Under the pieces are notes generated by a model. The model worked only from the letters and a program-made list of their open reading frames with translations. It ran no database searches and was not told where the DNA came from. From the NCBI RefSeq assembly GCF_003989825.1, contig NZ_RZHE01000015.1, positions 186,001 through 250,000 on the forward strand: a DNA stretch of 64,000 nucleotides. The letters are read 5' to 3'. The stretch comes from Vreelandella populi (GTDB taxonomy: Bacteria > Pseudomonadota > Gammaproteobacteria > Pseudomonadales > Halomonadaceae). Positions 19,360 through 43,776 of this stretch are shown piece after piece (the first letter of the stretch is position 1; each line of letters begins with the position of its first letter). The position numbers and the translations under genes were made by a program.

Positions 19360-19387
19360 TCGTACCCCCATCGCGCCCGTAGTAACC

Positions 19388-19414
19388 AACAGGCCGCGCG
19401 TTTCGCGGCCTGTT
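19388..19414. terminator. Bidirectional terminator between HDOD gene and TRAP operon
   Basis: A perfect 11-bp stem (19388-19398 and 19104+300 to 19414, i.e. 19404-19414) around a CGTTT loop, flanked by TTTAG on one side and an AACC side on the other. It lies between two convergent genes, 28 bp after the HDOD stop. Confidence 0.7.
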
Positions 19415-19418
19415 TAGA

Positions 19419-20723: not shown

Positions 20724-20767
20724 GGTTTTTCTCCAACATAACGTGGCCAAGCAGTGTCGGCAGGGAA

Positions 20768-21331: not shown

Positions 21332-21400
21332 GTTCGTTATCTCACCGAGTGGCTGGGCGAAAAGAGGCGGCCAATACCGCCTCTGAAGAACGTTCCAGGC

Positions 21401-22390: not shown

Positions 22391-22406
22391 GAGTAAATCC
22401 TCTTGT

Positions 22407-23396
22407 TTATATTAGTGGAGTTGATGCGTCAGGGGTGGTAAGGGAGGCGCTCGGCTGTACCCAGTGCCCGTTGAATAGCGCGCTGGTCATCTCGACACGG
22501 CGCGCATGCGCGTAAGCGATGGCTGTTTGTTGGGCTAAACGGCCAACGCCTCTGCAAAAGCGGGGATGATTGGCGCGACGCCATATCACATCATAGTTCA
22601 TTGCCGGTAGCGGCACCGGTAACGCCAGACGAAGAAGCTCGCCACGCCGCCACTCATCAAGCACCGTGGCAACCGGAAGCGCGCCGATACCCAGGCCTTC
22701 CATCGTCATGCGTGCGATGGTCATCAGCGTACTAACGCTATGGATACGCGGATGGGTAACGCCCTGCTCGGCCAGGTACTGAACCAGCTCTTCATAAGGG
22801 CGGGCCAGTTTGCCAAACGAAATAAACGGCAGCTTCTTACACCAGGCTTCGGCGCTTTCATTGAGCATTTCTGCATGCTGGGGAGATACGAACATACCCA
22901 TTTCATATGGGCTTAACGCTTCGTATTCGATCTGCTTGGGTGGCAGATAGCCATTCATAGCCAGCAGGATATCCAGCTCGTTACTGATAAGCCGCTCGTT
23001 TAACGTCGGCGAGTAATCCACCGTCAGCTCAATGGTTAAACGTGGGTAGCGCTCGGTAAGTTGGCGCATGAATTCGGGGAACCAGCTATGGGCAATGGTT
23101 TCAATCGTACCTAGCCGAAGAGGGGCAGAGTACTCCTCTTCGCTGTCGAAGAGTTTCATGGCTTCATCGCGCTGGCTGAGCATGCGCTCGGCATGCAGGA
23201 AAAATTCACGCCCGCGCATCGTGGGCTGCACCGGGCGAGCCGAGCGCTCCAGCAGCAGTTCGCCTACCGTCGCTTCTAAGCGCGAAATACGTTCTGAAAC
23301 CGATGGTTGAGTCAAATGCAGACGTACGGCCGCCTTGCGAAAGGATCCCAATTTGACGGCCCAAACAAAGGCTTCAAGTTCTTTGAAATCGAGCAT
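22407..23396 (-). CDS. LysR-family transcriptional regulator
   Basis: A 329-aa LysR-type regulator. Residues 3-62 form the winged helix-turn-helix (LEAFVWAVKLGSFRKAA, HLTQPSVSERISRLE); the rest is the two-lobed effector domain starting at about residue 92. It is the first gene of the - strand TRAP operon and is divergent from pxpABC across a 452-bp gap. That position suggests it controls both the TRAP genes and pxpABC in response to the imported compound. The effector is unknown. Confidence 0.9.
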   Translation of the reverse strand: MLDFKELEAFVWAVKLGSFRKAAVRLHLTQPSVSERISRLEATVGELLLERSARPVQPTMRGREFFLHAERMLSQRDEAMKLFDSEEEYSAPLRLGTIETIAHSWFPEFMRQLTERYPRLTIELTVDYSPTLNERLISNELDILLAMNGYLPPKQIEYEALSPYEMGMFVSPQHAEMLNESAEAWCKKLPFISFGKLARPYEELVQYLAEQGVTHPRIHSVSTLMTIARMTMEGLGIGALPVATVLDEWRRGELLRLALPVPLPAMNYDVIWRRANHPRFCRGVGRLAQQTAIAYAHARRVEMTSALFNGHWVQPSASLTTPDASTPLI

Positions 23397-27453: not shown

Positions 27454-28965
27454 CTACACAGCGGCGCTCTGAGATGACGGCGCACTGACCGGAGCACGCT
27501 TTTTACGCCCGAGCTCTTCGGAAATAGCGTTCAGGAAGGCATTGGCCGAAGCCTCATGCGGCTTGGTAGCAAGGCTTATACCCACAAAGAGGAACGTGGA
27601 GACAAAGATACCCCATATACCGGCAGGTAAACCCAGCAGGGAGTTACCCGTGGCATACATCCCCAGCACGAACACGCTGGTACCCACGACGCTTGCCAGC
27701 GCACCTGCAGCAGTGCCGCGCTTCCAGTAGAAAGCTCCGATAATGGCAGGCACCATGGCGACCAGGCCTGACGAGGTCGCCACCGAAAGCACTGCAATCA
27801 GATCCAGCTGCAATTCGGCAAACCCAAGCGCCATCAGGGCAATAACCGGAATCACGATTTTACCCATCAGCAGCTGGCGCTTTTCATTCACGCCAGGCTT
27901 GACGTTGGCATACACGTCACGCGACAGCATGGAGGCCAGGGTCAGCATGATGGAATCAATGGTGGAGACGGCGGCTGCCATGATGCCGATCATGACAATG
28001 ACACCCAGCACCGGTGGGATGAAGTCAGACGCCAGCAGCGTAGGCGTTGCCAGATCCGCTCGCGCCAGATCCGGGAACGCGGCCAGCGCTGAGAAGCCCC
28101 ACAGTACTGATACCAGCGTATAGATCAGGCCGAATATCAGAAAACCAATCAGCATCTGGCGCATCGCGCGCAGCGAAGATGGCATGAACAGGCGCTGGCT
28201 CACCTGTGGATTGGAGAGGCTGAAAAAGAACCAGGGAATGCTTAGCCCAAGGAAGGTCACCAGACTGAAAATGCCGGAACCCGGAACGCTCAGTGATGCC
28301 GGATGCTCGGCTTCAAGCGTGCCGAATAATCCGCTGAAGCCGCCCAAGCCCTGGATTACCAGAAAGGCTACTAGCGTAGAGGCAACAATCATCATCAGCG
28401 CCTGTAGCGAGTCGGTCCACATGACCGAACGGATACCGGCAATATAGGAGAAGAAAATGGCAATGATTGTGGCGATCACAATACCCGTGGTAAAGGTAAT
28501 CGCACCATCTGTCATCCCTTGCAGCAGGTAGCCCACGCCAGCCAACTGAACGGCAGAGTAAGGAATTAGAAATATACAACTGGCAAGCGAGACAGCCATA
28601 GCTACATGCTTGTTGTTATAGCGATGACCCAGCATCTCACTAGGCGTTACAAACCCGAACTTCTTGCCAACGGCCCAGAAGCGGGGGCCGAAAATGGCCA
28701 CCAGCGAAACACCGGCAAAGTAGATAATTTCAAAGCCCAGTGCGCCTACACCACCGGCATAGGTAAGCCCGGCCAGGCCGACCATCATAAAGGCGCTATA
28801 GGTAGTTGCACTGTAGCTTAAGGCCGAGACAAACCCGTTCATTTGCCGGTTACCCAGAAAGTAACCCGACATGCTTTCTGCCGCGCCCTGGCGTGAGAGA
28901 ACGGCAATCCCGGTCGCGATCAGTAGATAGATGGCGATCGACCACCAGATCATTGACTCAGTCAT
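27454..28965 (-). CDS. Sodium:solute symporter (SSS family), probable pyridine-acid permease
   Basis: A 503-aa protein with about thirteen membrane helices. The SSS family region SYSATTYSAFMMVGLAG lies near residue 50, IPWFFFSLSNPQVSQRLF near residue 240, and the sodium-site helix IMAAAVSTIDSIMLTLASML near residue 322. ATG 28965 is preferred since GAGGAG lies 7 nt upstream; another ATG two codons earlier sits too close to that site. It overlaps the 62-aa membrane gene and lies between nicB-like and nicX genes. Uptake of nicotinate or 6-hydroxynicotinate is inferred from location; SSS members also carry proline, pantothenate and acetate. Confidence 0.88.
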   Translation of the reverse strand: MTESMIWWSIAIYLLIATGIAVLSRQGAAESMSGYFLGNRQMNGFVSALSYSATTYSAFMMVGLAGLTYAGGVGALGFEIIYFAGVSLVAIFGPRFWAVGKKFGFVTPSEMLGHRYNNKHVAMAVSLASCIFLIPYSAVQLAGVGYLLQGMTDGAITFTTGIVIATIIAIFFSYIAGIRSVMWTDSLQALMMIVASTLVAFLVIQGLGGFSGLFGTLEAEHPASLSVPGSGIFSLVTFLGLSIPWFFFSLSNPQVSQRLFMPSSLRAMRQMLIGFLIFGLIYTLVSVLWGFSALAAFPDLARADLATPTLLASDFIPPVLGVIVMIGIMAAAVSTIDSIMLTLASMLSRDVYANVKPGVNEKRQLLMGKIVIPVIALMALGFAELQLDLIAVLSVATSSGLVAMVPAIIGAFYWKRGTAAGALASVVGTSVFVLGMYATGNSLLGLPAGIWGIFVSTFLFVGISLATKPHEASANAFLNAISEELGRKKRAPVSAPSSQSAAV

Positions 28966-29146
28966 TGCCATGCTCCTCGAAGTCTTTGGTGATGAAGATA
29001 TTCAGTGCGATGACGGCAACCCCCGCACAGGTCCAGAACAGAAAACTGCCGTACCAGGCCGCGACATTCGTTAGTAGGGTGTAAGGCACAAGACAGCTCA
29101 AAAGAACCACTATCCAGACTGCCCATATCCACTTGCTGCGTTTCAT
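28958..29146 (-). CDS. Small two-helix membrane protein paired with the SSS symporter
   Basis: A 62-aa protein with two hydrophobic helices (about residues 7-25 and 32-52) joined by a short loop, and a charged tail. Its start has GAGGTGG 5 nt upstream, and its stop overlaps the symporter start region, so the two are translationally coupled. Small two-helix partners are found beside several SSS permeases (for example YhdT beside PanF); this one may be an equivalent accessory subunit. I do not recognise the exact family. Confidence 0.75.
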   Translation of the reverse strand: MKRSKWIWAVWIVVLLSCLVPYTLLTNVAAWYGSFLFWTCAGVAVIALNIFITKDFEEHGND

Positions 29147-29167: not shown

Positions 29168-32100
29168 TCAGAGAGAAGAGTGCGTATTGTTGTGATGAGG
29201 CTGGCGTATTGCGGCAACGCGTTGTTCAAGTTGTTGCCAGGGAGGCGCGTCGGGCGCGAAGCGTGCCCGTAGATAGGTTGCCAGGGTAGCGACTTGTGTA
29301 TCACTGAAGCTGTCGGCAAAACCGGGCATGTTACCTACACCAGGGACGGTGTCAGCATGCACACCGCCTAAAATCGATTGAATAACGTTATCGGGACGCT
29401 CGCTGTAAAGGTTGGTATTCAGCGCAAGCGACGTTCTGGCTCGGGTAAACGATGGCAAGCCGTTATCCAGATGGCAGGCGGCACAAGCACCTTCAAACAG
29501 GCGCTCGCCCTCCTCCATGCCACTGGGGCTCACCGCCGCTGCGGCCAAGCGTTGCTGGGCATCGACCTGCTGTGCCTCAGTGTCCCCTGACGGGGCCTCC
29601 ATCTGCTGCGCCACGTAATGGGCGATGGCGCGCACGTCATACTCTGGCAGCTCGCTCAATCCGGCAACGACAGGCGCCATTGGCCCTGAAGCCACGCCAT
29701 GCAGGGCCGATTCGCCGTGACGTAAATAGTCGTACAGCGAGCTTTCGCTCCAGCCAACGGGAGATTTTGAAAGCGTATTCAAGGCAGGCGCCTCCCAACC
29801 ATCGACGACGGCACCGGCAAAGTAGTACTTACCGTTCTTTTCCGCGCCCATCGCATTGCGCGGACTATGGCAGGCACTGCAATGCCCCAGTCCTTCGGCG
29901 AGATAAGCGCCGCGATTGTAGAGCTCACTTTGCGCAGGATCCGGCTGAAACGGTTTGGGGTCGTGATAAAGCGCATTCCAGGGCGCCATGAGCGCACGCA
30001 CACTGAAAGGGAACGATAGATCGTTTTGAGGCGCTGGCGCTGCTACGGCCGGCTGGGACATCAGGTAAGCATAGAGCGCCTGAAGGTCGGATTCGCTGGT
30101 CTTGGCAAACGCCGTATAGGGAAACGCCGGATACAGATGGCGACCATCGCGGCCAATACCGTGGCGCATCGCACGCTCGAAAGCGGCATAGGACCAGTTG
30201 CCAATGCCGGTCGCCTCGTCGGGCGTGATGTTGGTGCTGTAAAGCGTACCAAAGGGTGTCTCAAACGCGTGACCGCCGGTATTGACGGCACCGCCGCTTG
30301 CGGTGTGGCAAGCCGCGCAGTCGCCTGCCGCCGCTACGAGTCGCCCGCGCTCGATAGTTTCAGCGGAATAGAGATTGGCCGCTGGCCGCGAGACAGGCGC
30401 AATCGCCCCTTTCCAGGGCCAGGCCATGGCCGCGCTACCGGCAACCGTCATGAAGGCAGCGGCCGCCAGCCATTGGCGGCGCGGCGCTTTGCTTTTGCGA
30501 GGTAAAAACAGGCTATCACGGCCCTGGGATGCTTCCAGATCCTGCTCTTGCAGCGCCTGCCGTACACGATTGGCCGTAAAAGGCGGCTGACGAAAACGTA
30601 TGCCGGTGGCATCGAACAATGCATTGGCAATGACGGCAACACCCGGCGAAAATTCGGTATCCTCAAGGGGAACCGGCAACACGGAGGATGCTTCATTTGG
30701 CGTCACCACCTGCCTTTCAAGCGAAGACTGGCGCCTGGCCAAAGGCAACTCTTTTTTGGCTTCTAAACTGCCATCGCCCCACTCATCGAAAGCCGGCTCA
30801 CTTCCCAGTAATGGCCGCGCTTCGCCTAATACTCGCGCTTGAAGCGTGTGTTGCAAACGCGCTGTATCAACCTCGACGCCCGAATCCTGGCCCACGACCA
30901 GTCGCGTTAACTGCACGTTCCCCGTGATCCGGTTGACCTCGACATCGGCAATCCAGGCAGAGCGTACGCCACTTTCCAGACGCTGTTGACGGTCGGGTAG
31001 CTGTGCATAGGCCAAACCACGGCCCTGCAACACATCACTCGATGCTATACGAGAAGGGGTATTTACCTGCCAGTCAGCTCGCTTGGCAACCGATTCAATA
31101 ATCTCGCGACCACGTACGTCGTCAAGATAGTGCAGGCGTAACGCCAGCGGGTCCTGGCCGCGCGCATGAGCGACTTCATCAAGAAATGATTCACGGGCGA
31201 AGGTCTGTTGAATACCCAGCAGGGTATCGTTCAAAGGCTGCCCCGAGGGGCGCCCGGTATGCGCCGACAGATGCGCGTTTTGGAAGGTATACGGAGAATA
31301 CAGCGGCTTTTCAGTGTCCGTTAAAACACCCAGCACAAGGGCTCGCCCGCTCAAAAACAGCCCGACGGCTGCCACCTCGCCACTGGCATGCGCCTGCCGG
31401 TAGCGATAATGCTCGATGTGATCACCTTCCCCAAAGGCGGCACTTAACGACAGGCGTTGCGCTTGCCCGAGAGCCTTAACATCAACGCTGTACTGTGCAT
31501 CCAGCCATACAGCGACCGGATGACCCAGCGCACGTGCCATCAGGGCAGCATCCACAGCGGCATCGTCACCACAATGGCGGCCAAGGCCCGAGGCCACGCG
31601 CCGCTCTGCTCCCGTGTTGGTATAAAGCGCTATCTGATCCGCATCTAGTGCCGTCAGGGTACTCAAATCCTGGCGCAGCGCTTCCGGCGTTGTGGTTTGT
31701 GTCCAGATATCAAGACGGTCGTTTCGATACTCGGCAACCACCCAGCCTTCGGTTTCTCCCCAGCGCATGCGGCTGGGCCAGCCGTAGTCGCGCTCATATC
31801 TGTCAGCGTGGCCGCCCTCGACATCAGCTACGCCGGTTTTTTTATGTACCAGAGCCTTGTGATCTTCTTCGTTTACGCGTGCTTGCTGTGCTGGCGTCTC
31901 CGCAATTTGGTCGTGTGCCTGCCAGCTTAGAATCAAGTGCTTAGCGGCATCGCGGGCATTTTCAATACTGCTTGCCACGACCCCTACAAAATTCCCCTCA
32001 ACCACAGCTTTTGCGTCATATGGCAACGTTTTCAGCGCCGATGTATCAACGTGCGCCAGCCGGTCACACGTAAGATGTTCGCCGTTCCAGCGGTAGTGAG

Positions 32101-32191
32101 GCGGGCGTACTACAACACCGTAGCGCAGGTTCTCGAAGCCGGCGGGCAAGGCAGTTTGATAGGGCTTCACCGTGGAATGGCGCTCAGTCAT
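29168..32191 (-). CDS. nicB: NicB-like nicotinate dehydrogenase subunit: degenerate molybdenum domain plus three c-type hemes
   Basis: A 1008-aa protein. Residues 1 to about 555 align with the molybdenum-subunit domain of nicotinate dehydrogenase but begin in the middle of the a/b-hammerhead (GVVVRPPHYRW near residue 20), so about the first 200 residues of the family are absent. The GxGE catalytic-Glu motif that should precede VIANALFDATG is missing. A membrane helix follows at about residues 573-593, then three heme sites: CAACH near 622, CSACH near 770 and CAACH near 903. P. putida NicB carries an intact Mo domain and cytochromes in one chain. Start ATG 32191 has GGGAGG upstream and overlaps nicA by 8 bp. 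It probably carries electrons from NicA to the respiratory chain. Confidence 0.85.
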   Translation of the reverse strand: MTERHSTVKPYQTALPAGFENLRYGVVVRPPHYRWNGEHLTCDRLAHVDTSALKTLPYDAKAVVEGNFVGVVASSIENARDAAKHLILSWQAHDQIAETPAQQARVNEEDHKALVHKKTGVADVEGGHADRYERDYGWPSRMRWGETEGWVVAEYRNDRLDIWTQTTTPEALRQDLSTLTALDADQIALYTNTGAERRVASGLGRHCGDDAAVDAALMARALGHPVAVWLDAQYSVDVKALGQAQRLSLSAAFGEGDHIEHYRYRQAHASGEVAAVGLFLSGRALVLGVLTDTEKPLYSPYTFQNAHLSAHTGRPSGQPLNDTLLGIQQTFARESFLDEVAHARGQDPLALRLHYLDDVRGREIIESVAKRADWQVNTPSRIASSDVLQGRGLAYAQLPDRQQRLESGVRSAWIADVEVNRITGNVQLTRLVVGQDSGVEVDTARLQHTLQARVLGEARPLLGSEPAFDEWGDGSLEAKKELPLARRQSSLERQVVTPNEASSVLPVPLEDTEFSPGVAVIANALFDATGIRFRQPPFTANRVRQALQEQDLEASQGRDSLFLPRKSKAPRRQWLAAAAFMTVAGSAAMAWPWKGAIAPVSRPAANLYSAETIERGRLVAAAGDCAACHTASGGAVNTGGHAFETPFGTLYSTNITPDEATGIGNWSYAAFERAMRHGIGRDGRHLYPAFPYTAFAKTSESDLQALYAYLMSQPAVAAPAPQNDLSFPFSVRALMAPWNALYHDPKPFQPDPAQSELYNRGAYLAEGLGHCSACHSPRNAMGAEKNGKYYFAGAVVDGWEAPALNTLSKSPVGWSESSLYDYLRHGESALHGVASGPMAPVVAGLSELPEYDVRAIAHYVAQQMEAPSGDTEAQQVDAQQRLAAAAVSPSGMEEGERLFEGACAACHLDNGLPSFTRARTSLALNTNLYSERPDNVIQSILGGVHADTVPGVGNMPGFADSFSDTQVATLATYLRARFAPDAPPWQQLEQRVAAIRQPHHNNTHSSL

Positions 32192-32669
32192 CAACGCCTC
32201 CCAACGCCATCGCGTTGAGTGCGACAGCACGATGAGCGGCATCCAGGATTTCCAGGTGCGTGCCACAACGGCAAAGATGATGCTCCAGCGCCGCCCCAAT
32301 CTGTTCGGAAGAGGGAGTGGAGGTGTGGTTCAACAACGAACGGATGCTGATAATCATGCCATTCAGGCAATAGCCACACTGTGCTGCCTGCGCATCGATA
32401 AACGCTTGTTGAACAGGATCCAGGCGGCCCTTATCGGCCAGCCCGTCCAGTGTCGTGACTTCTCGTCCAACCACCGAGGCGACTGTCAGTACGCAGGCTC
32501 TGGCAGCCATGCCATCCACCAGCACACTGCACGCACCGCATTCGCCCAGCCCACAGCCATACTTCGGGCCGTTCAACGCCAGGTCGTTACGCAGTGCGTT
32601 GAGCAGAGGTGTTGTAGGCGGAATGGCCAGCTCAACATTCTGTCCATTCACTTTTAGCTTCAGCGTCAT
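32184..32669 (-). CDS. nicA: Nicotinate dehydrogenase small FeS subunit NicA
   Basis: A 161-aa two-[2Fe-2S] protein of the xanthine-dehydrogenase small-subunit type. The plant-type cluster ligands are in CGLGECGACSVLVDG near residue 40 and a further Cys near residue 60; the second cluster is in QCGYCLNGMI near residue 98 and LCRCGTH near residue 135. It passes electrons from the molybdenum site to the heme subunit during hydroxylation of nicotinate to 6-hydroxynicotinate. It is the first gene of the left nic arm. The ribosome site is weak. Confidence 0.92.
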   Translation of the reverse strand: MTLKLKVNGQNVELAIPPTTPLLNALRNDLALNGPKYGCGLGECGACSVLVDGMAARACVLTVASVVGREVTTLDGLADKGRLDPVQQAFIDAQAAQCGYCLNGMIISIRSLLNHTSTPSSEQIGAALEHHLCRCGTHLEILDAAHRAVALNAMALGGVDD

Positions 32670-32837
32670 AGGGAATTATCATCGTTATTGTTAAAGCAAG
32701 TATTTATTTAGAGAGCTCTTATTTATCGGCAGCGCTTACGTAATTGTTAATTATTTTTTTGACAATATTTTATCTATTGTGGCCATCCCCACCTTCAATG
32801 CACCTGCACGGTGCAAAGTGTTTTGACTCGCTTAAAA

Positions 32838-32853
32838 ATAGTGCACACACTAT
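32838..32853. promoter_or_regulatory. Inverted repeat, candidate MarR (NicR-like) operator on the nicA side
   Basis: Perfect 6-bp arms ATAGTG/CACTAT around CACA, 16 bp in all. The right part, CACACACTATAA, resembles the TACACATTATAA segment in front of the MarR gene itself (40458-40469). MarR proteins usually bind 16-20 bp palindromes of this kind. Confidence 0.4.
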
Positions 32854-33024
32854 AAATACGCGACTATAAAACATATACCACTCTCCTCTCCCATCTCGCA
32901 AGTTTTTTATAATGGCAACTTAAAAAAACATAAATATCCATATTAAATATATAGTTACAAGAATCTAATAGATGATGGAAATTATTTAAAGGTTTGAATT
33001 GATTTTTCCTTGACCAAAAAATAA

Positions 33025-33040
33025 ATGGCGTATACGTTGT
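33025..33040. promoter_or_regulatory. Candidate MarR (NicR-like) operator on the nicC side
   Basis: ATGGCGTATACGTTGT matches, over its first eleven bases with one change, ATGGCGTACACATT at 40452 in the divergent region of the MarR gene. It lies about 85 bp before the nicC start and contains the palindrome CGTATACG. Confidence 0.4.
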
Positions 33041-33047
33041 TTTATAG

Positions 33048-35122
<2,075 letters not shown>

Positions 35123-35135
35123 GAGGCCGATTGCC

Positions 35136-35897
35136 ATGACGCTTGAAACCAAGACCTATCGTATCGGCCAGATCGTGCCGAGCTCCAACATCACCATGGA
35201 GACGGAAATTCCCGCCATGCTCACCGCACGGCAGTTGATTCGCCCCGAACGCTTTACCTTTCACTCCAGCCGCATGCGCATGAAAACCGTGAGCAAAGAC
35301 GAGCTGGCCGCCATGGACGGGGAGTCCGACCGCTGCGCGCTGGAGCTTTCCGATGCCGCCGTGGACGTCATGGGGTACGCCTGCCTAGTGGCCATCATGT
35401 CGATGGGCCCTGGCTATCACCGTGAGTCGCAGAAGCGTCTGCGCCGCCGCACTGAAGAGAACGGCTGCGATACGCCGGTCGTCACCAGCGCCGGTGCACT
35501 CGTGGATGCTCTGCATGTCATGAAGGCCAAGCGTGTGGTCGTGGTAGCTCCCTACATGAAGCCGCTGACCGAGATGGTCGTGGACTATATCCGCCAGGAA
35601 GGGGTTGAGGTAGTCGACTATCGCGCCCTGGAAATTCCCAACAACCTTGACGTGGCGCGTCATGACCCGGCCAAGCTGCCCGAGATCGTGGCCAGTCTCG
35701 ACCTGAGCGATATCGATGCCATCGTGCTCTCGGCCTGCGTGCAGATGCCCTCACTTCCAGCCGTCGCCAAGGTCGAGGCGCTGACCGGCAAGCCGGTGGT
35801 GACCGCTGCCATCGCCACCACCTACGCCATGCTCAAGGCGCTGGACCTGGAGCCGGTGGTGCCCGGCGCGGGCGCCCTGCTCTCTGGCGCCTACTAG
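35136..35897 (+). CDS. nicE: Maleate cis-trans isomerase NicE
   Basis: A 253-aa Asp/Glu-racemase-superfamily isomerase. The two catalytic cysteines are in GYACLVAIMS near residue 84 and VLSACVQMP near residue 201. It interconverts maleate and fumarate, so the pathway enters the TCA cycle. ATG 35136 lies 13 bp after nicD with GAGAGG upstream; an earlier in-frame start would overlap nicD by 56 bp and was not chosen. In the pathway it acts after NicF. Confidence 0.93.
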   Translation: MTLETKTYRIGQIVPSSNITMETEIPAMLTARQLIRPERFTFHSSRMRMKTVSKDELAAMDGESDRCALELSDAAVDVMGYACLVAIMSMGPGYHRESQKRLRRRTEENGCDTPVVTSAGALVDALHVMKAKRVVVVAPYMKPLTEMVVDYIRQEGVEVVDYRALEIPNNLDVARHDPAKLPEIVASLDLSDIDAIVLSACVQMPSLPAVAKVEALTGKPVVTAAIATTYAMLKALDLEPVVPGAGALLSGAY

Positions 35898-35907
35898 GAG
35901 CTTACCC

Positions 35908-36591
35908 ATGGCAACCCCTGATGCGATTCAAGACAGCTCGCTTCAAAACGACTCGGGTCATGAAGAAAACTCAGCCCAGGAGAACTATCGGGGCGTCTGG
36001 GACGGGCGCATCGGTTTCGGGCGCAAGGCAGCACTTCTGGTGGTGGACTTCATGCAGGGCTACGTGCGTGAGGAGTCGCCGCTTTTCGCCCCCGGCGTCG
36101 TCGAGGCCGTGGCCAACATGCCGCCGCTTTTGGATGCCGCTCGGCAGAGTGGCACCCCGGTCATCCACACCAATATTCTCTACCATGCGCCGGATCAGGT
36201 CGATGGCGGCATCTGGGTGAAGAAGTCGCCGGTCATGCGCGCCATGGTAGCTGGCAACCCCTTCGCCGAGTTCTGCACTGAAGTGGTGCCGGATTCAACT
36301 GAGCCGGTTATCACCAAGCAGTACGCGAGCGCCTTCTTCGGCACTTCGCTTGCATCGATGCTGGTGGCCATGGGCGTCGATACGATCATCGTCACCGGCT
36401 GCTCGACCAGTGGCTGCATTCGTGCCACCGCCGTCGACGGCCTGCAGTACGGTTTCCGCGTGATGGTAGTGCGCGACTGTGTGGGCGACCGCCACCCTGA
36501 TCCGCACGAGGCGAACCTGTTCGACATCGACAGCAAGTACGGCGATGTCATCGACCGCCAGGCAGCGATCGATCATTTGCTGGGAGGCTGA
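35908..36591 (+). CDS. nicF: Maleamate amidohydrolase NicF (isochorismatase family)
   Basis: A 227-aa cysteine hydrolase. The Asp-Lys-Cys catalytic triad is visible in LLVVDFMQGY near residue 46, TKQYASAFFGT near residue 132 and VTGCSTSGCIRATA near residue 163. It deaminates maleamate to maleate and ammonia. The gene starts 10 bp after nicE and ends the nicCDEF unit, followed by a strong hairpin. The first 30 residues are polar and look like a disordered leader. Confidence 0.92.
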   Translation: MATPDAIQDSSLQNDSGHEENSAQENYRGVWDGRIGFGRKAALLVVDFMQGYVREESPLFAPGVVEAVANMPPLLDAARQSGTPVIHTNILYHAPDQVDGGIWVKKSPVMRAMVAGNPFAEFCTEVVPDSTEPVITKQYASAFFGTSLASMLVAMGVDTIIVTGCSTSGCIRATAVDGLQYGFRVMVVRDCVGDRHPDPHEANLFDIDSKYGDVIDRQAAIDHLLGG

Positions 36592-36602
36592 ACAGCACTT
36601 CT

Positions 36603-36625
36603 AAAAGGCCGCTTTGCGGCCTTTT
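36603..36625 (+). terminator. Terminator after nicF
   Basis: A 10-bp perfect stem (36603-36612 and 36616-36625) with a TTT loop; the right arm ends in TTTT. It lies 11 bp after the nicF stop and separates nicCDEF from the TTT transporter. Confidence 0.85.
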
Positions 36626-36752
36626 GGCTTCTTAACACTCACTGTTCATTAAAAGAGGAAGGAGTACTTCAACGCTCGCCAGCTCGCAAAACCAACAAAC
36701 CACAATAAAACGCTTTGCGTTGATCCCACTGACAACATAACAGGTAACTTAC

Positions 36753-37727
36753 ATGACACTTCGCCGTTTGATAATAGCGTCCGTTTTGGGCTTCACCCTG
36801 CCCCTGAGTTCCGGACTTCTAGCCGATGACTTTCCCGAGCGTGCGCTCACCCTCGTCGTTCCCTGGCCCGCTGGCGGCGCCTATGACCTGGCGGCCCGTT
36901 TAATGGCCGAGCATGCTGGCACGGCACTCTCTGTCCCCATCGTCGTTCAAAATGTGACGGGGGCGGCCGGGTCTACGGGCATTCGCCACGTAGCTGAGTC
37001 CGACCCAGATGGCTATACCCTAGGTATGATGGGTACCCATGCCATCGCCCAAAGCTACATGAACCCCAATGCCACGCCATTGGACGAACTTGAGGCGCTG
37101 GTATTCATCGGCCCCGAGCCAGCCGCGTTCGCGGTGGGCAGCGATACGGGCATCACGGATATTGCTGACTATCTGCAAACACTCCAGGAATCGCCCGGCG
37201 CAATTATCAACGGTAACGACTCGCCCGGCGGCTTCTCCTATATCGCAGCCAGCATGCTTGAGTCGCAGTTTGACGTTACACTGACGAAGATCCCCTATCA
37301 GGGTTACGCCCCCACCTTCTCGGCATTGCTTTCTGGCGAGGTCATGTCCGCCCTGCTGCCAATACCGTTATTAGCTGACCAGCACGCCTCGGGGCAGCTC
37401 CAGATACTGGGCGTGGCCTCAGATGCGCGCCACCCCTTTGCACCGGATGTTCCTACCTTCAAGGAGCAAGGTTATGACTTCACGGCGGAGGACTTCTTTA
37501 TGCTTTATCTGCCACAAGGCGTACCCAATGAGCGCCGCGACACGTTGGAGTCGGCTTTCTACACACTGCTTGAAGACGAAGCGTTTCAGTTGGCGGCAAG
37601 TGAGGTGGGCTTAGTGATAGCTCCGCAACCTAGGGAGGCAAGCTCAGATTACCTTACCCAGCGCGCCGATGAGGTCTACGAAATCCTTTCTTCCGCCAAT
37701 CTGGTGGATGACGCGCTGACGCGCTGA
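36753..37727 (+). CDS. TTT transporter substrate-binding protein (TctC family), nic-linked
   Basis: A 324-aa periplasmic protein with a signal peptide ending at about residue 25 (SSGLLA-DDF). TctC features follow: LTLVVPWPAGGAYDLAARL near residue 32, NVTGAAGSTGIRH near residue 67, IPYQGYAPTFSALLSGEV near residue 180 and LGVASDARHP. It supplies substrate to the TctB/TctA pair encoded next. Position inside the nic island suggests a pyridine carboxylate or a maleate/fumarate-type acid as ligand (inference). Confidence 0.9.
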   Translation: MTLRRLIIASVLGFTLPLSSGLLADDFPERALTLVVPWPAGGAYDLAARLMAEHAGTALSVPIVVQNVTGAAGSTGIRHVAESDPDGYTLGMMGTHAIAQSYMNPNATPLDELEALVFIGPEPAAFAVGSDTGITDIADYLQTLQESPGAIINGNDSPGGFSYIAASMLESQFDVTLTKIPYQGYAPTFSALLSGEVMSALLPIPLLADQHASGQLQILGVASDARHPFAPDVPTFKEQGYDFTAEDFFMLYLPQGVPNERRDTLESAFYTLLEDEAFQLAASEVGLVIAPQPREASSDYLTQRADEVYEILSSANLVDDALTR

Positions 37728-37758
37728 CGGCTCCTGCTCACGGCTTAGGAGAGACGCC

Positions 37759-38283
37759 ATGCGTTCGTTTAACGCTTTTCTTGATCGCGCCGTCGGGCGC
37801 GATCTTGCCTGTGGACTGCTTTTCAGTGGCATTGCCCTTGTCGGGTTCATCAACGTAAGTGGCAATACAATGCTGATGAACACGCTAGGCCGAGGCCCTG
37901 ATCCAGGTCCCGCACTGCTGCCGCTGACCGTTCTCAGCTTCATGTTGCTGGGAGGCAGCCTTCTACTTCTCAAGGGGCTGGCCGGTTGGGCACTGCACTC
38001 GCGCAGGACAGCCGAGCAGACGCCGCCCCAAAATAACGTTCCCTTTGGCCGTCACACGCACGCGGTGGCCCTGTTTGTTTCTCTTTTGGCGCTGCCGAGC
38101 GTGGTGACATCGCTTGGTTTCTTGCCAGCGACCTGGCTTTTCGCCACCCCTTGGCTCATCTGGCTGGAGTATCGTCGCTGCCATCGCCTGCGTCGTGCCT
38201 TACTGCTCGGCATCATGACCGCCGCATTGCTAAGCCTTGCGCTGTATCTGATCTTCATCACCCTACTGGGTGTCGCTCTATGA
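37759..38283 (+). CDS. TTT transporter small membrane subunit (TctB family), nic-linked
   Basis: A 174-aa protein with four hydrophobic segments (about residues 15-33, 52-75, 98-115 and 142-172) and a charged linker, as in TctB. The start has AGGAGAG 5 nt upstream. It lies 31 bp after tctC and 22 bp before tctA. Confidence 0.85.
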   Translation: MRSFNAFLDRAVGRDLACGLLFSGIALVGFINVSGNTMLMNTLGRGPDPGPALLPLTVLSFMLLGGSLLLLKGLAGWALHSRRTAEQTPPQNNVPFGRHTHAVALFVSLLALPSVVTSLGFLPATWLFATPWLIWLEYRRCHRLRRALLLGIMTAALLSLALYLIFITLLGVAL

Positions 38284-38305
38284 CGCCCGCGGTTAGGAGA
38301 CTCCC

Positions 38306-39823
38306 ATGCTGATCGACAGTTTCCTTACCTCGCTCCTGGCAACGCTCGCATCGCCCTGGGGTTTGATGCTTGCCGTGCTGGGCACTCTGCTTGGCATCGT
38401 GCTCGGCGCCCTGCCGGGCGTAAGCTCCACCATGGCGCTGGCTATTCTGCTACCGCTGAGTTTCGGTATGGACCCCGCATTTGCCATTCTTTTTCTACTC
38501 TGTGTGTTCGTTGCCAGCGTCTATGGTGGCTCAATCTCCGCTATCCTGATCAACATTCCAGGCACGCCGGGTGCAATCGTCACTCAATTGGACGGCCATC
38601 CTCTTGCCCGCGCAGGGCGGGCCAAGGAAGCGTTGGTCTATGCGCTGATCGCCTCGAGCGTGGGAGGCGTCATCGGTCTGGCACTTCTGGTTGTCACCGC
38701 TCCAATGCTGGCCTCGATCGCGATGCGCTTTAAAAGCCCCGAGTTCACGGCTATCGCAGTGTTCGGTTTGGTGCTACTTGCCTACGCTTCGCCAGGTTCA
38801 ACGGTACGCGGATTGCTGGTCGGCGCCGTCGGTCTACTCTGTGGAATGGTAGGGTTCGATGCTTTAACCGACGTCTCGCGCTTCACTTTCGATACACGTG
38901 GCCTGCAAGGAGGCATCGAACTAGTACCGCTATGTGTAGGGTTGTTTGGTCTCGCTGAGGTTCTAAGGAATCTGCACGGCTCTCACCGCGCCACGCCTGA
39001 GTTCGACATGCAATCTACCCAATTGCCTCTACCAAATCTTCGCACGATCGCTGGACGCTGGGCGTCGATGCTGCGCGGTTCCTTTATTGGCGCATTTGTC
39101 GGCGCTATACCCGCTGCCGGGTCGGCTATCGCAGTGGCTATCGCCTATGCCCAGGAGATGCGCTTTTCAAGGCATCCCGAGCGCTTCGGCCATGGCGCCG
39201 TCGAGGGTGTGGTGGGGCCCGAGGCCGCTAATAGTTCGAGCATTGGTGGCACGCTGATACCAATGATGACGCTGGGCGTACCTGGAGATGCCATCACAGC
39301 AGTATTAATGGGGTCGCTGTTGATCCATGGGCTGCGGCCTGGGCCCATGCTCTTCGCAGAAAACCCAGGTTTCGTCTCGAGCCTCTACGCCGGATTCTTC
39401 CTCGCGTTGCTGCTTACACTGGTCATCGGCCTTTTGCTGATGCGCTGGTTGCCTTGGGTACTGCGCATCCCTTCGCATACGCTGCTCATTGGCATTGCCC
39501 TGCTCTGCGTGGTGGGCGCCTATGCTATTCGCAGCAGCATGGCAGATGTCTACATCATGCTCTTCTTCGGCGCTGTAGGGTACGTCTTGTATCTCTTATC
39601 GCTACCCGCTGCCCCTTTGGCTTTCGGCTTGATTCTGGGGCCGCTGCTTGAGGAGAACCTGCGCCGCAGTCTGCTGCTGGGTCGCGGCTCCTGGGAGGTA
39701 TTCCTGCACAGCCCCATTGCCATGGGCCTGTTCGGGCTGTCGCTACTGGCCATCATACTGCCGCTTTTGGCGCCACTCTGGGTGCGGCTTGGCAATGACA
39801 TAAAGCGAGTAAGGATGCATTGA
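38306..39823 (+). CDS. TTT transporter large membrane subunit (TctA family), nic-linked
   Basis: A 505-aa membrane protein with about twelve helices. It carries GALPGVSSTMALAILLPLSF near residue 35, INIPGTPGAIVTQLDGHPLA near residue 80, IPAAGSAIAVAIAYAQEM near residue 270 and a late LGVPGDAITAVLMG. Overall similarity to the TctA at 912-2402 is clear but not close, so this is a separate system. The transporter operon is convergent with the MarR gene. Confidence 0.92.
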   Translation: MLIDSFLTSLLATLASPWGLMLAVLGTLLGIVLGALPGVSSTMALAILLPLSFGMDPAFAILFLLCVFVASVYGGSISAILINIPGTPGAIVTQLDGHPLARAGRAKEALVYALIASSVGGVIGLALLVVTAPMLASIAMRFKSPEFTAIAVFGLVLLAYASPGSTVRGLLVGAVGLLCGMVGFDALTDVSRFTFDTRGLQGGIELVPLCVGLFGLAEVLRNLHGSHRATPEFDMQSTQLPLPNLRTIAGRWASMLRGSFIGAFVGAIPAAGSAIAVAIAYAQEMRFSRHPERFGHGAVEGVVGPEAANSSSIGGTLIPMMTLGVPGDAITAVLMGSLLIHGLRPGPMLFAENPGFVSSLYAGFFLALLLTLVIGLLLMRWLPWVLRIPSHTLLIGIALLCVVGAYAIRSSMADVYIMLFFGAVGYVLYLLSLPAAPLAFGLILGPLLEENLRRSLLLGRGSWEVFLHSPIAMGLFGLSLLAIILPLLAPLWVRLGNDIKRVRMH

Positions 39824-39849
39824 CTGTCGCGCCCACAAACGGAAAAGCT

Positions 39850-39869
39850 CCCCGTGCTAGGCCACGGGG
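39850..39869. terminator. Hairpin between tctA and the MarR gene
   Basis: A 7-bp GC-rich stem (39850-39856 and 39863-39869) with a 6-nt loop that includes the MarR stop codon. On the - strand it is followed by AGCTTTTCC, a modest U-run. It may end both convergent transcripts. Confidence 0.5.
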
Positions 39870-40342
39870 TCTGCATTCATTTTTTCCAGCAGGTGCATCA
39901 GCGCGACGCGCTCGGCAGGGTTGAGGTTTTGCATGGTGGCATCGCTGATCTGTCGGGCATTGGGCACCATTGCCTCAACGATAGCGGCCCCGGCTTCGGT
40001 AATTACCACCATCACCTTGCGTTGATCGTTGGGGTCGGTGGTCAGCGTGACCCATTCACGGGCCTTGAGACGCTTGATCACCCCCCTAACAGTGGCAGGA
40101 TCTATAGCCGTGGCGTTAACGATATCGGTTAAGGAACTGGCCCCCCGCTCCATCACTGTGCACAAGGCGACAAACTGAATGGCCGTTAGCTGCTTATCAC
40201 AGACGTGACGTTGAAAAATGGCGATATGACGCTGATAGGCCTTACGCAGCAAATGACCTACCTGCTCTGAAAAATCGTACCCCTGCTCAGACGGCGTAGG
40301 GTGCGCATTTTTTTGGACGTCGTGGGAACGGTCCGATGTCAT
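39857..40342 (-). CDS. nicR: MarR-family regulator, NicR-like
   Basis: A 161-aa MarR protein. The winged helix is visible: LTDIVNATAIDPATVRGVIKR near residue 78 and the wing VTLTTDPNDQRKVMVVITEAG near residue 100. In P. putida the MarR-type NicR represses nic genes and is released by 6-hydroxynicotinate; this gene matches it in size and setting. It is divergent from the second molybdenum-subunit gene, and an element from its upstream region recurs in front of nicC. Confidence 0.85.
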   Translation of the reverse strand: MTSDRSHDVQKNAHPTPSEQGYDFSEQVGHLLRKAYQRHIAIFQRHVCDKQLTAIQFVALCTVMERGASSLTDIVNATAIDPATVRGVIKRLKAREWVTLTTDPNDQRKVMVVITEAGAAIVEAMVPNARQISDATMQNLNPAERVALMHLLEKMNADPVA

Positions 40343-40451
40343 TCAAACTCCTTGCTGATGCGCAATGATGTCTTTCAAGTATGGCAGTGGAAAAAGGTTA
40401 AGGAGACTTTACGTATAACGCGAGAATTACCGCTTTATTCACCGCCAATTT

Positions 40452-40469
40452 ATGGCGTACACATTATAA
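40452..40469. promoter_or_regulatory. Candidate NicR-like operator before the MarR and molybdenum-subunit genes
   Basis: ATGGCGTACACATTATAA shares its first half with ATGGCGTATACGTT at 33025 and its second half with CACACTATAA at 32845-32855. It lies midway in the 201-bp divergent gap, where a repressor would control both its own gene and the enzyme genes. Confidence 0.4.
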
Positions 40470-40543
40470 ATTTATATTAAACTCAAGCAACCTCTCACGA
40501 TACATGAAAGACCTGAGCATCTAAAAACAACCATGGAGGCCAC

Positions 40544-42823
40544 ATGACCGGTAAGAAAGCCTATGATCGGCAAGCCCTTCTACATGATCCAGACCTTCTT
40601 ATCGTGTATCGGGACCCGATTACGCCTCCCAAACCTGCGCCAGGACAACCGGGCACACACTCTAATTTCGTACCTACTGAGCCCGAAATATTCATTGCTA
40701 TCCTGAGCACGGGCCAAGTGCTGGCGTTCAACGGCCATGTGGATCTTGGCACAGGCATACGCACCGCGCTTGCCCAGATCGTAGCTGAAGAGCTTGAGGT
40801 AGCGCTTGAGTCCATCACCATGGTGCTGGGAGATCCGTTCGAGGTACCCAACCAGGGGCCAACGATTGCTAGCGCCACTATTCAGATTACTGCCGAGCCG
40901 CTTCGTCGTGCTGCCGCTCAGGCGCGTGAATATTTACTGTCCAGAGCCGCCCTGCATTTTGGTTTACCTCAACATAAGCTCCGTTGTCGCGTAGGTCATA
41001 TTGCACCGTTAGACGACACGTTACCCGCCATCGGCTATGGCGAACTGCTCGCCGGTGCCCGACATGCCTTGAAGCTTGCCGATGATGTTCCCCTCAAACC
41101 TGCCCACCAATATTGCCTGGTGGGCAAGGCTGCGCCTCGCGTGGATATTCCCGGTAAGGTAACGGGTGCACTGACGTTCGTGCATGACTTTCGCCTGCCG
41201 GATATGCTCTACGGCCATGTGATACGACCTCCTTACAGTGGCTATGATCGGGGCGATTTCGTCGGTCATTCACTGATATCCGTCGATGAAAGTTCAGTCG
41301 CCGGCATGGCAGGGCTGGTCAGTGTCGTGACGATTGGTGATTTTGTCGGCGTTGTGGCTGAACGCGAAGAGCAGGCAGCTGCTATTGCCCGTAAACTCAA
41401 TATCGTTTGGCGCAAGCCCGGCACACTGCCCCCCATGCATAACATTGAACAGGCGCTGGATGAATTGCCGGTTCAAAAGCGCCTGCTGCTTGAAGAAGGC
41501 CAGGTCGACGATGCCCTCAAAAGTGCTCAACATCGTGTTCGACGCGCTTATGTCTGGCCATTTCAACTGCATGGCTCAATTGGGCCTTCATGCTCGGTTG
41601 CTCACTACCGTGACGATCAACTGCACGTCTGGTCGGGCACGCAGAATCCTCATAGCCTGCGTGCCGAGCTGTCGCGTCTGATGCTGCTGGATGAAAGCGC
41701 CATTACCATCACGCGTATGGAGGCTTCCGGCTGTTACGGCCGCAACTGCGCTGATGATGTGGGGGCTGATGCGGCGTTGCTATCAAGGGCCGTTGGCCGC
41801 CCCGTGCGCGTCCAACTCACCCGCGAGCAGGAGCATCTCTGGGAACCCAAGGGGGCCGCCCAGCGGATGGATGTTGACGCCGGCATCAATGCCGACGGTA
41901 ACCTGGCAGGTTACCGGTTCGTTGCTCGCTATCCTTCCAACAATGCACCGACCCTGGCGCTTTTGCTGACAGGCACACAGCAACCCAGCGACGTGCCTTT
42001 CCAGATGGGGGACCGCACGTCCGTTCCGCCCTATGGCTATCCGCATCGGCGCATTGCCTGTGATGATGTGCCCACGCTCGTGCGCGCCTCATGGCTACGC
42101 GGCGTTTCCGCCATGCCGAACGCGTTTGCACACGAAAGTGCCATCGATGAGCTGGCTTTCTTGGCCGGGGAAGACCCTATTGCCTTCCGAATTCGGCACT
42201 TGACCGATACGCGCGCCATAGAACTCGTCAAGGCCCTGGCAACACGCGCTCATTGGCAGCCTCGCCCAGCATATTCTACCCCCCGTATCGAAGCGGGCTG
42301 GCATTACGGGCGCGGGTTTGCCTACGCGCAGTATGTGCATAGTAAATTCCCCGGCTTCGGCGCGGCGCTGGCGGCCTGGGTCGTCGAACTGAAAGTGCAT
42401 CCCGCCAGCGGCCGAATTATTATCGAACGTCTGTATGTGGGCCAGGATGCTGGACTCATGATCAACCCCGACGGCGTACGCCACCAGGTGCATGGCAACG
42501 TCATCCAGACACTTAGCCGAACCCTGAAAGAGCGGGTGACCTTCGAAAAGGGTTTACCCATGAATCGCGAATGGGGCAGCTACCCCATCCTGCGCTTTTC
42601 GGAGCTTCCGGATATTCAGCTTCTAATGTTGGATAGAACGGATCAGCCGTCACTAGGTGTCGGCGAATCCACGTCGCTCCCCGGCGCCCCGGCCATTGCC
42701 AATGCGTTGTTCGATGCAACAGGCGTGCGCTTTACACATCCTCCGTTTACCGCCGAGACCGTTCGTCGAAAGCTTGAGCAAAGCGATATCCCCATAGAAA
42801 GACGCGCCGAGGTGGCGCTGTAA
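40544..42823 (+). CDS. Molybdenum-hydroxylase large subunit, NicB-type Mo domain without cytochromes
   Basis: A 759-aa protein matching the whole molybdenum half of NicB. The N-terminal part has FNGHVDLGTGIRTALAQIVA near residue 66 and NQGPTIASATIQI near residue 104; the hammerhead domain begins at RVDIPGKVTGALTF near residue 203. Then follow the Mo-cofactor segments SGCYGRNCADDVGADAALLS near residue 396 and the catalytic GVGES, with Glu 708. No heme motif or membrane helix is present. It is divergent from nicR and overlaps xdhC by one base (TAATG). It likely provides the active molybdenum site for nicotinate hydroxylation with NicA and the heme subunit; another N-heterocycle is possible. Confidence 0.88.
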   Translation: MTGKKAYDRQALLHDPDLLIVYRDPITPPKPAPGQPGTHSNFVPTEPEIFIAILSTGQVLAFNGHVDLGTGIRTALAQIVAEELEVALESITMVLGDPFEVPNQGPTIASATIQITAEPLRRAAAQAREYLLSRAALHFGLPQHKLRCRVGHIAPLDDTLPAIGYGELLAGARHALKLADDVPLKPAHQYCLVGKAAPRVDIPGKVTGALTFVHDFRLPDMLYGHVIRPPYSGYDRGDFVGHSLISVDESSVAGMAGLVSVVTIGDFVGVVAEREEQAAAIARKLNIVWRKPGTLPPMHNIEQALDELPVQKRLLLEEGQVDDALKSAQHRVRRAYVWPFQLHGSIGPSCSVAHYRDDQLHVWSGTQNPHSLRAELSRLMLLDESAITITRMEASGCYGRNCADDVGADAALLSRAVGRPVRVQLTREQEHLWEPKGAAQRMDVDAGINADGNLAGYRFVARYPSNNAPTLALLLTGTQQPSDVPFQMGDRTSVPPYGYPHRRIACDDVPTLVRASWLRGVSAMPNAFAHESAIDELAFLAGEDPIAFRIRHLTDTRAIELVKALATRAHWQPRPAYSTPRIEAGWHYGRGFAYAQYVHSKFPGFGAALAAWVVELKVHPASGRIIIERLYVGQDAGLMINPDGVRHQVHGNVIQTLSRTLKERVTFEKGLPMNREWGSYPILRFSELPDIQLLMLDRTDQPSLGVGESTSLPGAPAIANALFDATGVRFTHPPFTAETVRRKLEQSDIPIERRAEVAL

Positions 42824-43776
42824 TGCAGCACCTTGATCTTCAGGTTATCGAGCGTGCCCTTCAGTGGGCTAACCAGGGCCGTGTGGTCTGGCTGTGTACG
42901 GTACTGACGACCTTTGGCTCGTCACCCAGGGAACCCGGGGCCGTCATGGCTGCGTGCTCAAAAGAGCAGTTCATCGGTTCACTATCAGGCGGGTGCGTTG
43001 AAGAGAACTTTCTGGAACGCCTGGAAAAGGGCGCCCTTTCATCTTCACCGGTTCAACTGATTCATTACGGTGGAGAAAGTGATGACACCGTTCGCCTGCC
43101 CTGCGGCGGGCGTCTTGATGTGCTGGTGGAACGGCTTGAACCCAGCGCCGACACATTGATCCATCTTGAAGTCGTGCATGCCACGCTGATGGGGCGCCGA
43201 CCATTGATACGTCATGTGTTACTGGACGGCTCGCGCAAGCGCTTCATCGTGCCCGAAGGGCCGGGGCCTGCCGTCACGTGCGATGAGCATGCCGCCTATC
43301 TTCGTATTGGCCCGTCGTTGCGCCTGGTTATCGCAGGCATTTCCACTATCGCCGTTCCCTGCGCCCAGTTCGCTCAGACACTGGGATTTGAAGTCATTGT
43401 CTGCGACCCACGCGAGGAGATGCGGCGCGACTTCAATGTTCCTGGTGTCGAGTTACAGGCGGTACTGCCTTCGCTGTTCATAGCCTCAGGAGCGTGCCAC
43501 GCAGCCACGGCGATTGTCGCCCTTACCCACGACCCGCGTATTGATGACTTGACGATGATCGAGGCGGTACGCACGGACGCTTTTTATATCGGCGTCATGG
43601 GATCGAAGAAAACCTCAGCCCAACGTGCCGAACGCTTACGGCGCTCAGGCGGTTTGACCGACATCGATATCGCGCGGATCGTCATGCCGATCGGTCTAGA
43701 CCTGGGGAGTAAAACACCGGCCGAGATCGCCTTGGCGACCATGGCCGATATCCTGCGTGTCTATCGGGGAAAATGA
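42823..43776 (+). CDS. XdhC/CoxI-family molybdenum-cofactor maturation factor
   Basis: A 317-aa protein with an N-terminal XdhC/CoxI domain (TTFGSSPREPGAVMA near residue 28 and GSLSGGCVEENFLE near residue 50) and a C-terminal Rossmann domain starting at LRLVIAGISTIAVPC near residue 167. XdhC proteins bind molybdenum cofactor and promote its sulfuration and insertion into xanthine-dehydrogenase-type enzymes. Its start overlaps the stop of the Mo subunit gene, so it is probably dedicated to that protein. Such a chaperone would not be needed if the Mo domain were inactive, supporting activity of the 759-aa subunit. Confidence 0.9.
   Translation: MQHLDLQVIERALQWANQGRVVWLCTVLTTFGSSPREPGAVMAACSKEQFIGSLSGGCVEENFLERLEKGALSSSPVQLIHYGGESDDTVRLPCGGRLDVLVERLEPSADTLIHLEVVHATLMGRRPLIRHVLLDGSRKRFIVPEGPGPAVTCDEHAAYLRIGPSLRLVIAGISTIAVPCAQFAQTLGFEVIVCDPREEMRRDFNVPGVELQAVLPSLFIASGACHAATAIVALTHDPRIDDLTMIEAVRTDAFYIGVMGSKKTSAQRAERLRRSGGLTDIDIARIVMPIGLDLGSKTPAEIALATMADILRVYRGK

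Follow-up and report, generated by a model that had tools for sequence, protein, structure and literature searches.

In the accessible parts of a 2023 paper, the nicotinate hydroxylase of Burkholderia gladioli and Bordetella is described as tripartite, being made of NicA, NicB1 and NicB2, and nicotinate breakdown is laid out along the maleamate route (PMC10269826). For Alcaligenes faecalis JQ135, the available passages of a 2019 paper report an enzyme of three components, of which two subunits contain molybdenum (PMC6403243, citing Zhang 2018); the corresponding excerpts of the Delftia Cs1-4 genome report list nicB1 as an aldehyde dehydrogenase in the nic operon and place nicB2 next to nicA (PMC4572682). 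The BpsR paper names nicA and nicB in Bordetella, with no subunit detail in the passages at hand (PMC6837509), and for Comamonas testosteroni JA1 a partly accessible review gives NdhS, NdhL and NdhM subunits of 21, 82 and 46 kDa (PMC10331938). Here we analyse a 64,000-nucleotide stretch of the Vreelandella populi genome (contig NZ_RZHE01000015.1, positions 186,001 to 250,000; hereafter the window), in which one nic cluster holds NicA, a stand-alone molybdenum (Mo) subunit that we call CAT, and a heme-bearing, Mo-like subunit that we call HET. The tripartite arrangement has already been published for Bordetella, Burkholderia gladioli and Alcaligenes, and the window is a further member; in the literature searched, where subscription papers were mostly outside reach, we found no mention of a dead Mo subunit in the pair, or of a link with export by the twin-arginine translocation (Tat) pathway.

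We propose that the locus encodes a three-component nicotinate dehydrogenase consisting of NicA, a catalytic Mo subunit (CAT) and a membrane heme subunit (HET) whose dead Mo domain would act as a docking platform, a reading to which we assign a probability of roughly 0.68. We infer the activity, conversion of nicotinate to 6-hydroxynicotinate, from the nicCDEFX neighbours. A first-pass annotation of this DNA, made from the letters and their open reading frames, had already suggested a three-component enzyme with an inactive Mo-domain copy, and that suggestion is now well supported by conserved residue loss, by co-occurrence of the two genes and by purifying selection.

The two Mo-type proteins differ sharply in what they contain. 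CAT matches MoCoBD_1 and both MoCoBD_2 pieces in Pfam well above the cut-off, and has the molybdenum cofactor (Moco) site positions that mark a xanthine oxidase family Mo hydroxylase, together with the GxGE glutamate (Glu708, in GVGE). It contains no CxxCH motif; its most hydrophobic 19 residues (253-271, 19-residue hydrophobicity KD19 1.85) are modelled as strands with no helix, so that no membrane helix is indicated. The earlier description of a complete, heme-free, membrane-free 759-residue protein joined to an XdhC gene (Table 1) is thus borne out. CAT is 53-59% identical to the Mo domain-bearing single chain called NicB in other loci, and 60-95% identical to five other CAT proteins.

HET had been described as a 1008-residue protein joining a truncated Mo domain to three hemes; the hemes and the truncation stand, and the length is corrected here, since the frame beginning at the ATG at 32191 encodes 1007 residues and a stop. 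It is long and open on the minus strand only, the plus strand in that frame being full of stops. The Mo-like part aligns to CAT residues 220-751 with 31% identity, and because the match begins at residue 220 HET lacks the first ~220 residues of the family (~200 in the first-pass annotation); as also stated there, no GxGE precedes VIANALFDATG. In Pfam HET has MoCoBD_1 only (32.9 bits, cut-off 27), and MoCoBD_2 was found in it neither by Pfam nor by a PF20256 search of the whole genome. With three CxxCH motifs and a matching fold it has the features of a triheme cytochrome c subunit of membrane dehydrogenases, and it lacks the catalytic glutamate and Moco loops that would mark an active xanthine oxidase family member or a single-chain NicB.

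Comparison with other loci brings out three layouts. A scan of named genomes was confined to the best 80 loci, so its frequencies are biased; 74 of these 80 carry a single-chain (fused) NicB, in which a complete Mo domain with GxGES sits on the heme chain, in Pseudomonas, Serratia, Pantoea, Bradyrhizobium, Azospirillum, Paraburkholderia, Acidovorax and other hosts. Such loci share with the window a Mo domain, an anchor, a triheme module and, for the most part, a nicA neighbour, but combine both functions in a single chain, which retains E708 in all 74 (the Pseudomonas examples being loci other than KT2440). No stand-alone partner of the CAT class was seen beside these 74 loci within at most ~10 kb on each side (12 loci being shorter than 20 kb); the Serratia loci have a relative of 25-26% identity. 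Two Serratia loci (L083 and L088, ~18900-22940) carry a second, Tat-signalled Mo/2Fe-2S/triheme set near the nic cluster, with a Mo subunit ~26% identical.

The second layout, HET with CAT, accounts for six of the 80 best loci: four from Vreelandella/Halomonas, one from Alloalcanivorax and one from Bordetella sp. 02P26C-1 (L135). The Bordetella locus, like the window, encodes within a single nic cluster both a dead chain with hemes and a stand-alone chain with GVGES; it differs in that the window has XdhC beside CAT as well as TctCBA, neither of which was seen in the L135 listing, and the two HET proteins are 39% identical. The A. faecalis JQ135 enzyme resembles the window in the number and kind of its subunits, as far as the available part of the citing paper describes them (PMC6403243). 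In the third, simple layout (L213-L216, L219, L222 and L232), a separate Mo subunit accompanies a separate triheme cytochrome, whose frame is 437-463 residues long in six of the seven loci and longer in L222. These loci and JA1 NdhSLM, which we liken to them by subunit sizes alone, agree with the window in keeping Mo and cytochrome subunits apart; unlike the window, the simple loci are free of a dead Mo domain, and in 7/7 cases their Mo subunit bears a Tat motif (e.g. SRRQFLAATG).

The closest solved structure to both halves of the system is the membrane-bound aldehyde dehydrogenase of Gluconobacter (PDB 8gy3). The predicted model of CAT (pLDDT 82) matches chain 8gy3_C best, with Z 34.3 and a root-mean-square deviation (rmsd) of 2.8 over 664 residues. 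Through the heme part, the HET model (pLDDT 71, pTM 0.49) fits 8gy3_A (Z 34.3, rmsd 4.1, 403 residues); that cytochrome chain, 444 residues in the entry, has no Mo-like domain. The N-terminal part of HET fits Mo hydroxylases with Z up to 23.0 and rmsd 5.5 over ~430 residues, so that, in a model of moderate confidence, the xanthine oxidase fold is shared. A helix is modelled with low confidence at the anchor (572-590), and residues 457-512, directly before VIANALFDATG, have pLDDT below 50.

Residue conservation carries much of the argument that one copy is dead. We aligned 82 stand-alone chains (71 of the main type, 4 of a second type and 7 simple), 74 fused chains and 75 HET, all sequences being distinct. 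E708 is present in 82/82 stand-alone and 74/74 fused chains and in 5/75 HET, and no HET has the aligned G705, G707 and E708 together, the HET of L023 having a chance GAGE farther upstream. R519 follows the same pattern (82/82, 74/74 and 1/75), as does Q78 (82/82, 73/74 and 0/75), and the other constants of the active chains seldom or never survive in HET: D67 0/75, H343 4/75, C397 0/75, R491 3/75, R514 2/75, N652 0/75 and G707 1/75. Fold positions, in contrast, are retained (R228 71/75, D405 72/75, and F528, R549, G589, W612, N720 and R729 each 69/75), the range for the chosen core residues being 58-72/75. The lists of lost and of kept positions were both selected after a first table of ~80 positions, and we take the lost ones to be cofactor-contacting from knowledge of the xanthine oxidase family and from alignment with 8gy3_C and PaoC rather than from a cofactor-bound structure. 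By this alignment the Mo-like half of HET is one that has lost the cofactor and catalytic positions kept by CAT and single-chain NicB, with its core positions retained.

The pairing of the two genes is consistent. The first-pass annotation had asked whether both always co-occur and had held that a HET without the CAT gene would speak against a three-component enzyme; among 146 relatives of the window, with matches classed by eye, HET occurs in 36 and CAT in 36, both in the same 36 and neither gene ever alone, and no HET lacking a CAT gene was found in the genomes compared. Recurrence of the same pair in 36 of 146 relatives argues against a chance arrangement. Three of the 36 carry HET in pieces owing to frameshifts or contig ends (G045, G080 and G087), and the breaks in many genes of G045 resemble assembly error.

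A search of 250 genomes of the family of Bordetella sp. 02P26C-1 at E 1e-95 gave 91 matches to the HET query and 108 to the CAT query, fused and simple forms included; compared by eye, the 30 best HET matches all came with CAT and the 30 best CAT matches all with HET. Six odd cases were followed up in this family. In G637, CAT is accompanied by a HET that a contig end truncates; in G651 and G701 CAT is present (broken in G701, where other nic genes are broken as well) and HET is split by a frameshift in the anchor region (L233 7582-10540; L236); G605 has both genes broken (L235, L240) in a decaying split cluster; and G723 and G743 are of the fused form. Natural fission of HET in G651 was ruled out, the break being a frameshift within the anchor region. 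Besides the window itself, a 369-genome sample of the class at E 1e-85 gave no more than one genome of the same genus and two separate cytochromes. The Bordetella family also holds a second HET-CAT type (L217, L218, L220 and L221), in which the genes are adjacent and CAT is nearer to the simple forms.

Selection on the dead half was estimated as the ratio of nonsynonymous to synonymous substitution rates (dN/dS) over 15 related close pairs, which are not independent and of which three, involving G043, span only 174 Mo-like residues. The ratio was 0.135-0.243 (median 0.21) for the Mo-like part of HET, 0.042-0.144 (median 0.08) for its heme part and 0.066-0.115 (median 0.09) for CAT. On these estimates the Mo-like half is relaxed yet clearly under purifying selection. 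That HET is a pseudogene was ruled out, its frame being open in most relatives and dN/dS being 0.14-0.24. An alternative is that the Mo-like half is a relic that persists since it precedes the membrane anchor and is hard to lose, CAT and the hemes being sufficient: it has the highest dN/dS in 15/15 pairs, its branches are several times longer, and the Alloalcanivorax copy (L064) is missing a further stretch. Against this, the ratios lie far below 1, of the 25 rows from gamma- and beta-proteobacteria all but two short ones (23) retain 467-684 residues, the chosen core residues persist in the large majority of HET, and related enzymes of the simple form do have an unfused triheme subunit; we therefore regard a relic as unlikely.

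In the mechanism that we favour, CAT would bind the molybdenum cofactor and hydroxylate nicotinate to 6-hydroxynicotinate with the aid of XdhC, and NicA would accept the electrons via its [2Fe-2S] clusters. HET would be the membrane subunit, its three c-type hemes handing electrons onward, and its dead half would lie on the cytoplasmic side and dock the CAT-NicA pair, which has no export signal, to the heme module in the membrane, a contact that would replace the covalent linkage provided by the living Mo domain in single-chain NicB. Docking or electron transfer had been offered by the first-pass annotation as the task of the inactive copy. The former is the best-supported option and plausible; the latter is unlikely for the dead domain itself, because nearly all tested cofactor-site positions are lost and the hemes would carry the electrons. 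HET might also go beyond docking and form a mixed dimer with CAT as a genuine pseudoenzyme partner, lending residues to the CAT active site or regulating it. Mo hydroxylase domains commonly dimerise and the HET fold is retained, but CAT alone has every cofactor and catalytic position that we checked, and such a partnership seems improbable.

The membrane topology bears on what the dead half could be for. The segment between the Mo part and the hemes has a median KD19 of 1.33 in HET and 1.86 in fused NicB, reaching at least 1.6 in 20/75 and 63/74 chains, respectively, and lysines and arginines average 4.5 before it and 1.4 after it in HET, as compared with 3.9 and 1.1 in fused NicB. Because heme attachment to c-type cytochromes takes place in the periplasm and the basic side faces the Mo part, the Mo part of HET and of fused NicB is predicted to be cytosolic. 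The Tat motif of the simple loci is absent from 75/75 other stand-alone CAT (71 of the main type and 4 of the second type), and the bare twin-arginine pattern of 4/74 fused NicB lacks the following hydrophobic stretch and was not counted as Tat; the CAT and HET of the window do not belong to the Tat-exported, NdhSLM-like simple form.

Whether living or dead, a Mo-type domain carried by the cytochrome thus goes with an absent Tat signal, which is the best hint to the purpose of the dead half. We tentatively suggest that once Tat export had been given up, a Mo-type domain joined to a single-span triheme cytochrome on its cytoplasmic side could let a cytosolic hydroxylase feed periplasmic hemes, and that it could do so even when dead, having passed from enzyme to membrane receptor, with electrons crossing the membrane by an undescribed route; this we would sooner doubt than adopt. 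Alternatively, the anchor could be a cleaved internal signal peptide, one gene giving two products, a dead-Mo protein in the cytosol and a triheme cytochrome in the periplasm. The segment, as read from the printed sequences, is short, weakly hydrophobic and basic on one side, with small residues at its end before a WPW/PW motif, and the accessible part of the review cites a Pseudomonas TN5 enzyme purified as an 80-kDa single band (PMC10331938); however, a matching segment is present in the 8gy3 cytochrome entry sequence, which leaves in-cell cutting undecided, and we rate cleavage as quite improbable.

Phylogeny places CAT among nicotinate-type enzymes. In the tree of active Mo domains, gamma- and beta-proteobacterial CAT form one clade (support 89; 95 in a second Mo tree) that groups with stand-alone nicotinate-type Mo subunits, adjoining the simple forms and the second CAT type, with fused chains outside in a tree that its long outgroup rows root poorly. 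The 25 HET Mo-like parts, L157 and L005 being short rows, form one group (100, branch 1.29), to which long branches may contribute. In the heme tree, where the row labelled as outgroup, L083_OUT, is the fused NicB of L083, gamma-proteobacterial HET form one group (100) and beta-proteobacterial HET another (98). Convergent splits in the gamma- and beta-proteobacteria are not favoured, the CAT genes being one clade, and the HET heme modules do not settle the question. That CAT-XdhC serves another substrate, with HET and NicA a separate or broken system, is very improbable: CAT does lie ~8 kb from HET on the opposite strand, and HET overlaps nicA (by 8 nt) where CAT does not, but the two genes pair in 36/36 relatives, CAT groups with nicotinate-type Mo domains, both lie within one nic cluster, and HET is without catalytic residues.

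On the motifs around them, shared regulation of CAT and nicA is at most possible. The core GCGTAYAC (either strand) of a palindrome-like element in the gap between the MarR-family gene and CAT (Table 1) precedes CAT in 22 of 30 loci and nicA in 4 of 30, three of the 30 upstream stretches being shorter than 100 bases; L070 of genome G030 has a perfect palindrome, and weaker copies of the element lie near nicA in the window. The best full-motif match was equalled by mononucleotide shuffles in 6/200 for the nicA/nicC gap and 0/200 for the CAT gap. Across the window the exact 12-base form has 2 matches against 0.67 expected, and 13/100 shuffles did as well. One regulator may act over CAT and nicA-HET.

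Several of these results weigh against a three-component enzyme with a docking HET. The co-regulation signal is weak, both in the loci with a core before nicA and in the shuffles that equal the two window matches. The HET anchor is only weakly hydrophobic by its median, while a stretch in CAT that is not an anchor reaches 1.85, and a cytosolic Mo centre with periplasmic hemes leaves the electron path across the membrane unexplained. The dead half has a dN/dS about twice that of CAT, which implies modest constraint, and the core positions quoted for it were chosen only after the first residue table had been seen. The HET model is only fair (pLDDT and pTM as above), the single HET group of the Mo tree sits on long branches, and the heme-tree backbone that links the gamma- and beta-proteobacterial HET groups and fused NicB gives no settled order.

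Should the three-component reading hold, it would explain why some nicotinate degraders have two molybdenum genes, one of them a conserved pseudoenzyme, and HET should not be annotated as an active subunit. The three natural layouts (fused, split with a dead half, and split with a Tat signal) would make the transfer of electrons from a hydroxylase without an export signal to c-type hemes across the membrane testable.

Table 1. Features of the nic cluster and of its proteins, in positions of the window.
Feature	Position	Strand	Remarks
HET (heme-bearing subunit with dead Mo domain, NicB2-like), 1007 aa	29168..32191	-	positional counterpart of nicB
Mo-like domain of HET, ~residues 20-547	30551..32134	-	without family residues 1-220, R519 equivalent and GxGE
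Predicted membrane anchor of HET, ~residues 572-592, between Mo-like part and hemes	30416..30478	-	from hydrophobicity and K/R counts; basic side faces Mo-like part
Triheme cytochrome c module of HET, ~residues 605-997	29201..30379	-	fit to 8gy3_A, Z 34.3
CxxCH heme motif 1 of HET, residues 625-629	30305..30319	-	
CxxCH heme motif 2 of HET, residues 771-775	29867..29881	-	
CxxCH heme motif 3 of HET, residues 903-907	29471..29485	-	
NicA, [2Fe-2S] subunit, 161 aa	32184..32669	-	
CAT (catalytic Mo subunit, NicB1-like, stand-alone), 759 aa	40544..42823	+	
Codon of catalytic Glu708 (GVGE)	42665..42667	+	
XdhC-family Moco maturation factor	42823..43776	+	shares one base with CAT stop codon
MarR-family regulator (NicR/BpsR-like by position)	39857..40342	-	divergent from CAT
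Palindrome-like element TATGGCGTACACATTATA, also given as TATRGCGTAYACGCYATA, candidate operator of MarR regulator	40451..40468	+	MarR/CAT gap
NicC-like FAD monooxygenase (6-hydroxynicotinate 3-monooxygenase by position and homology)	33126..34292	+	
NicD-like alpha/beta hydrolase	34289..35122	+	
NicE-like maleate isomerase family protein (Amdase)	35067..35897	+	
NicF-like isochorismatase-family amidohydrolase	35908..36591	+	
TctCBA tripartite transporter genes	36753..39823	+	
NicX-like 2,5-dihydroxypyridine dioxygenase, 345 aa	26298..27335	-	by position and homology only, no Pfam match
Sodium:solute symporter	27454..28971	-	

The maleamate-route genes for nicotinate breakdown are present in the window, as named by homology and by the gene order of Pseudomonas-type loci. 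A chemoreceptor with a dCache domain (44009-45991) adjoins the cluster, as it does in L069, L070, L073 and L074, and possibly senses nicotinate or a relative. NicX falls into two lineages: one, ~90% identical, is found in L069-L071, where it sits at the far end of the cluster, and the other, 44-46% identical, lies between nicA and nicC elsewhere (L063, L068 and L072).

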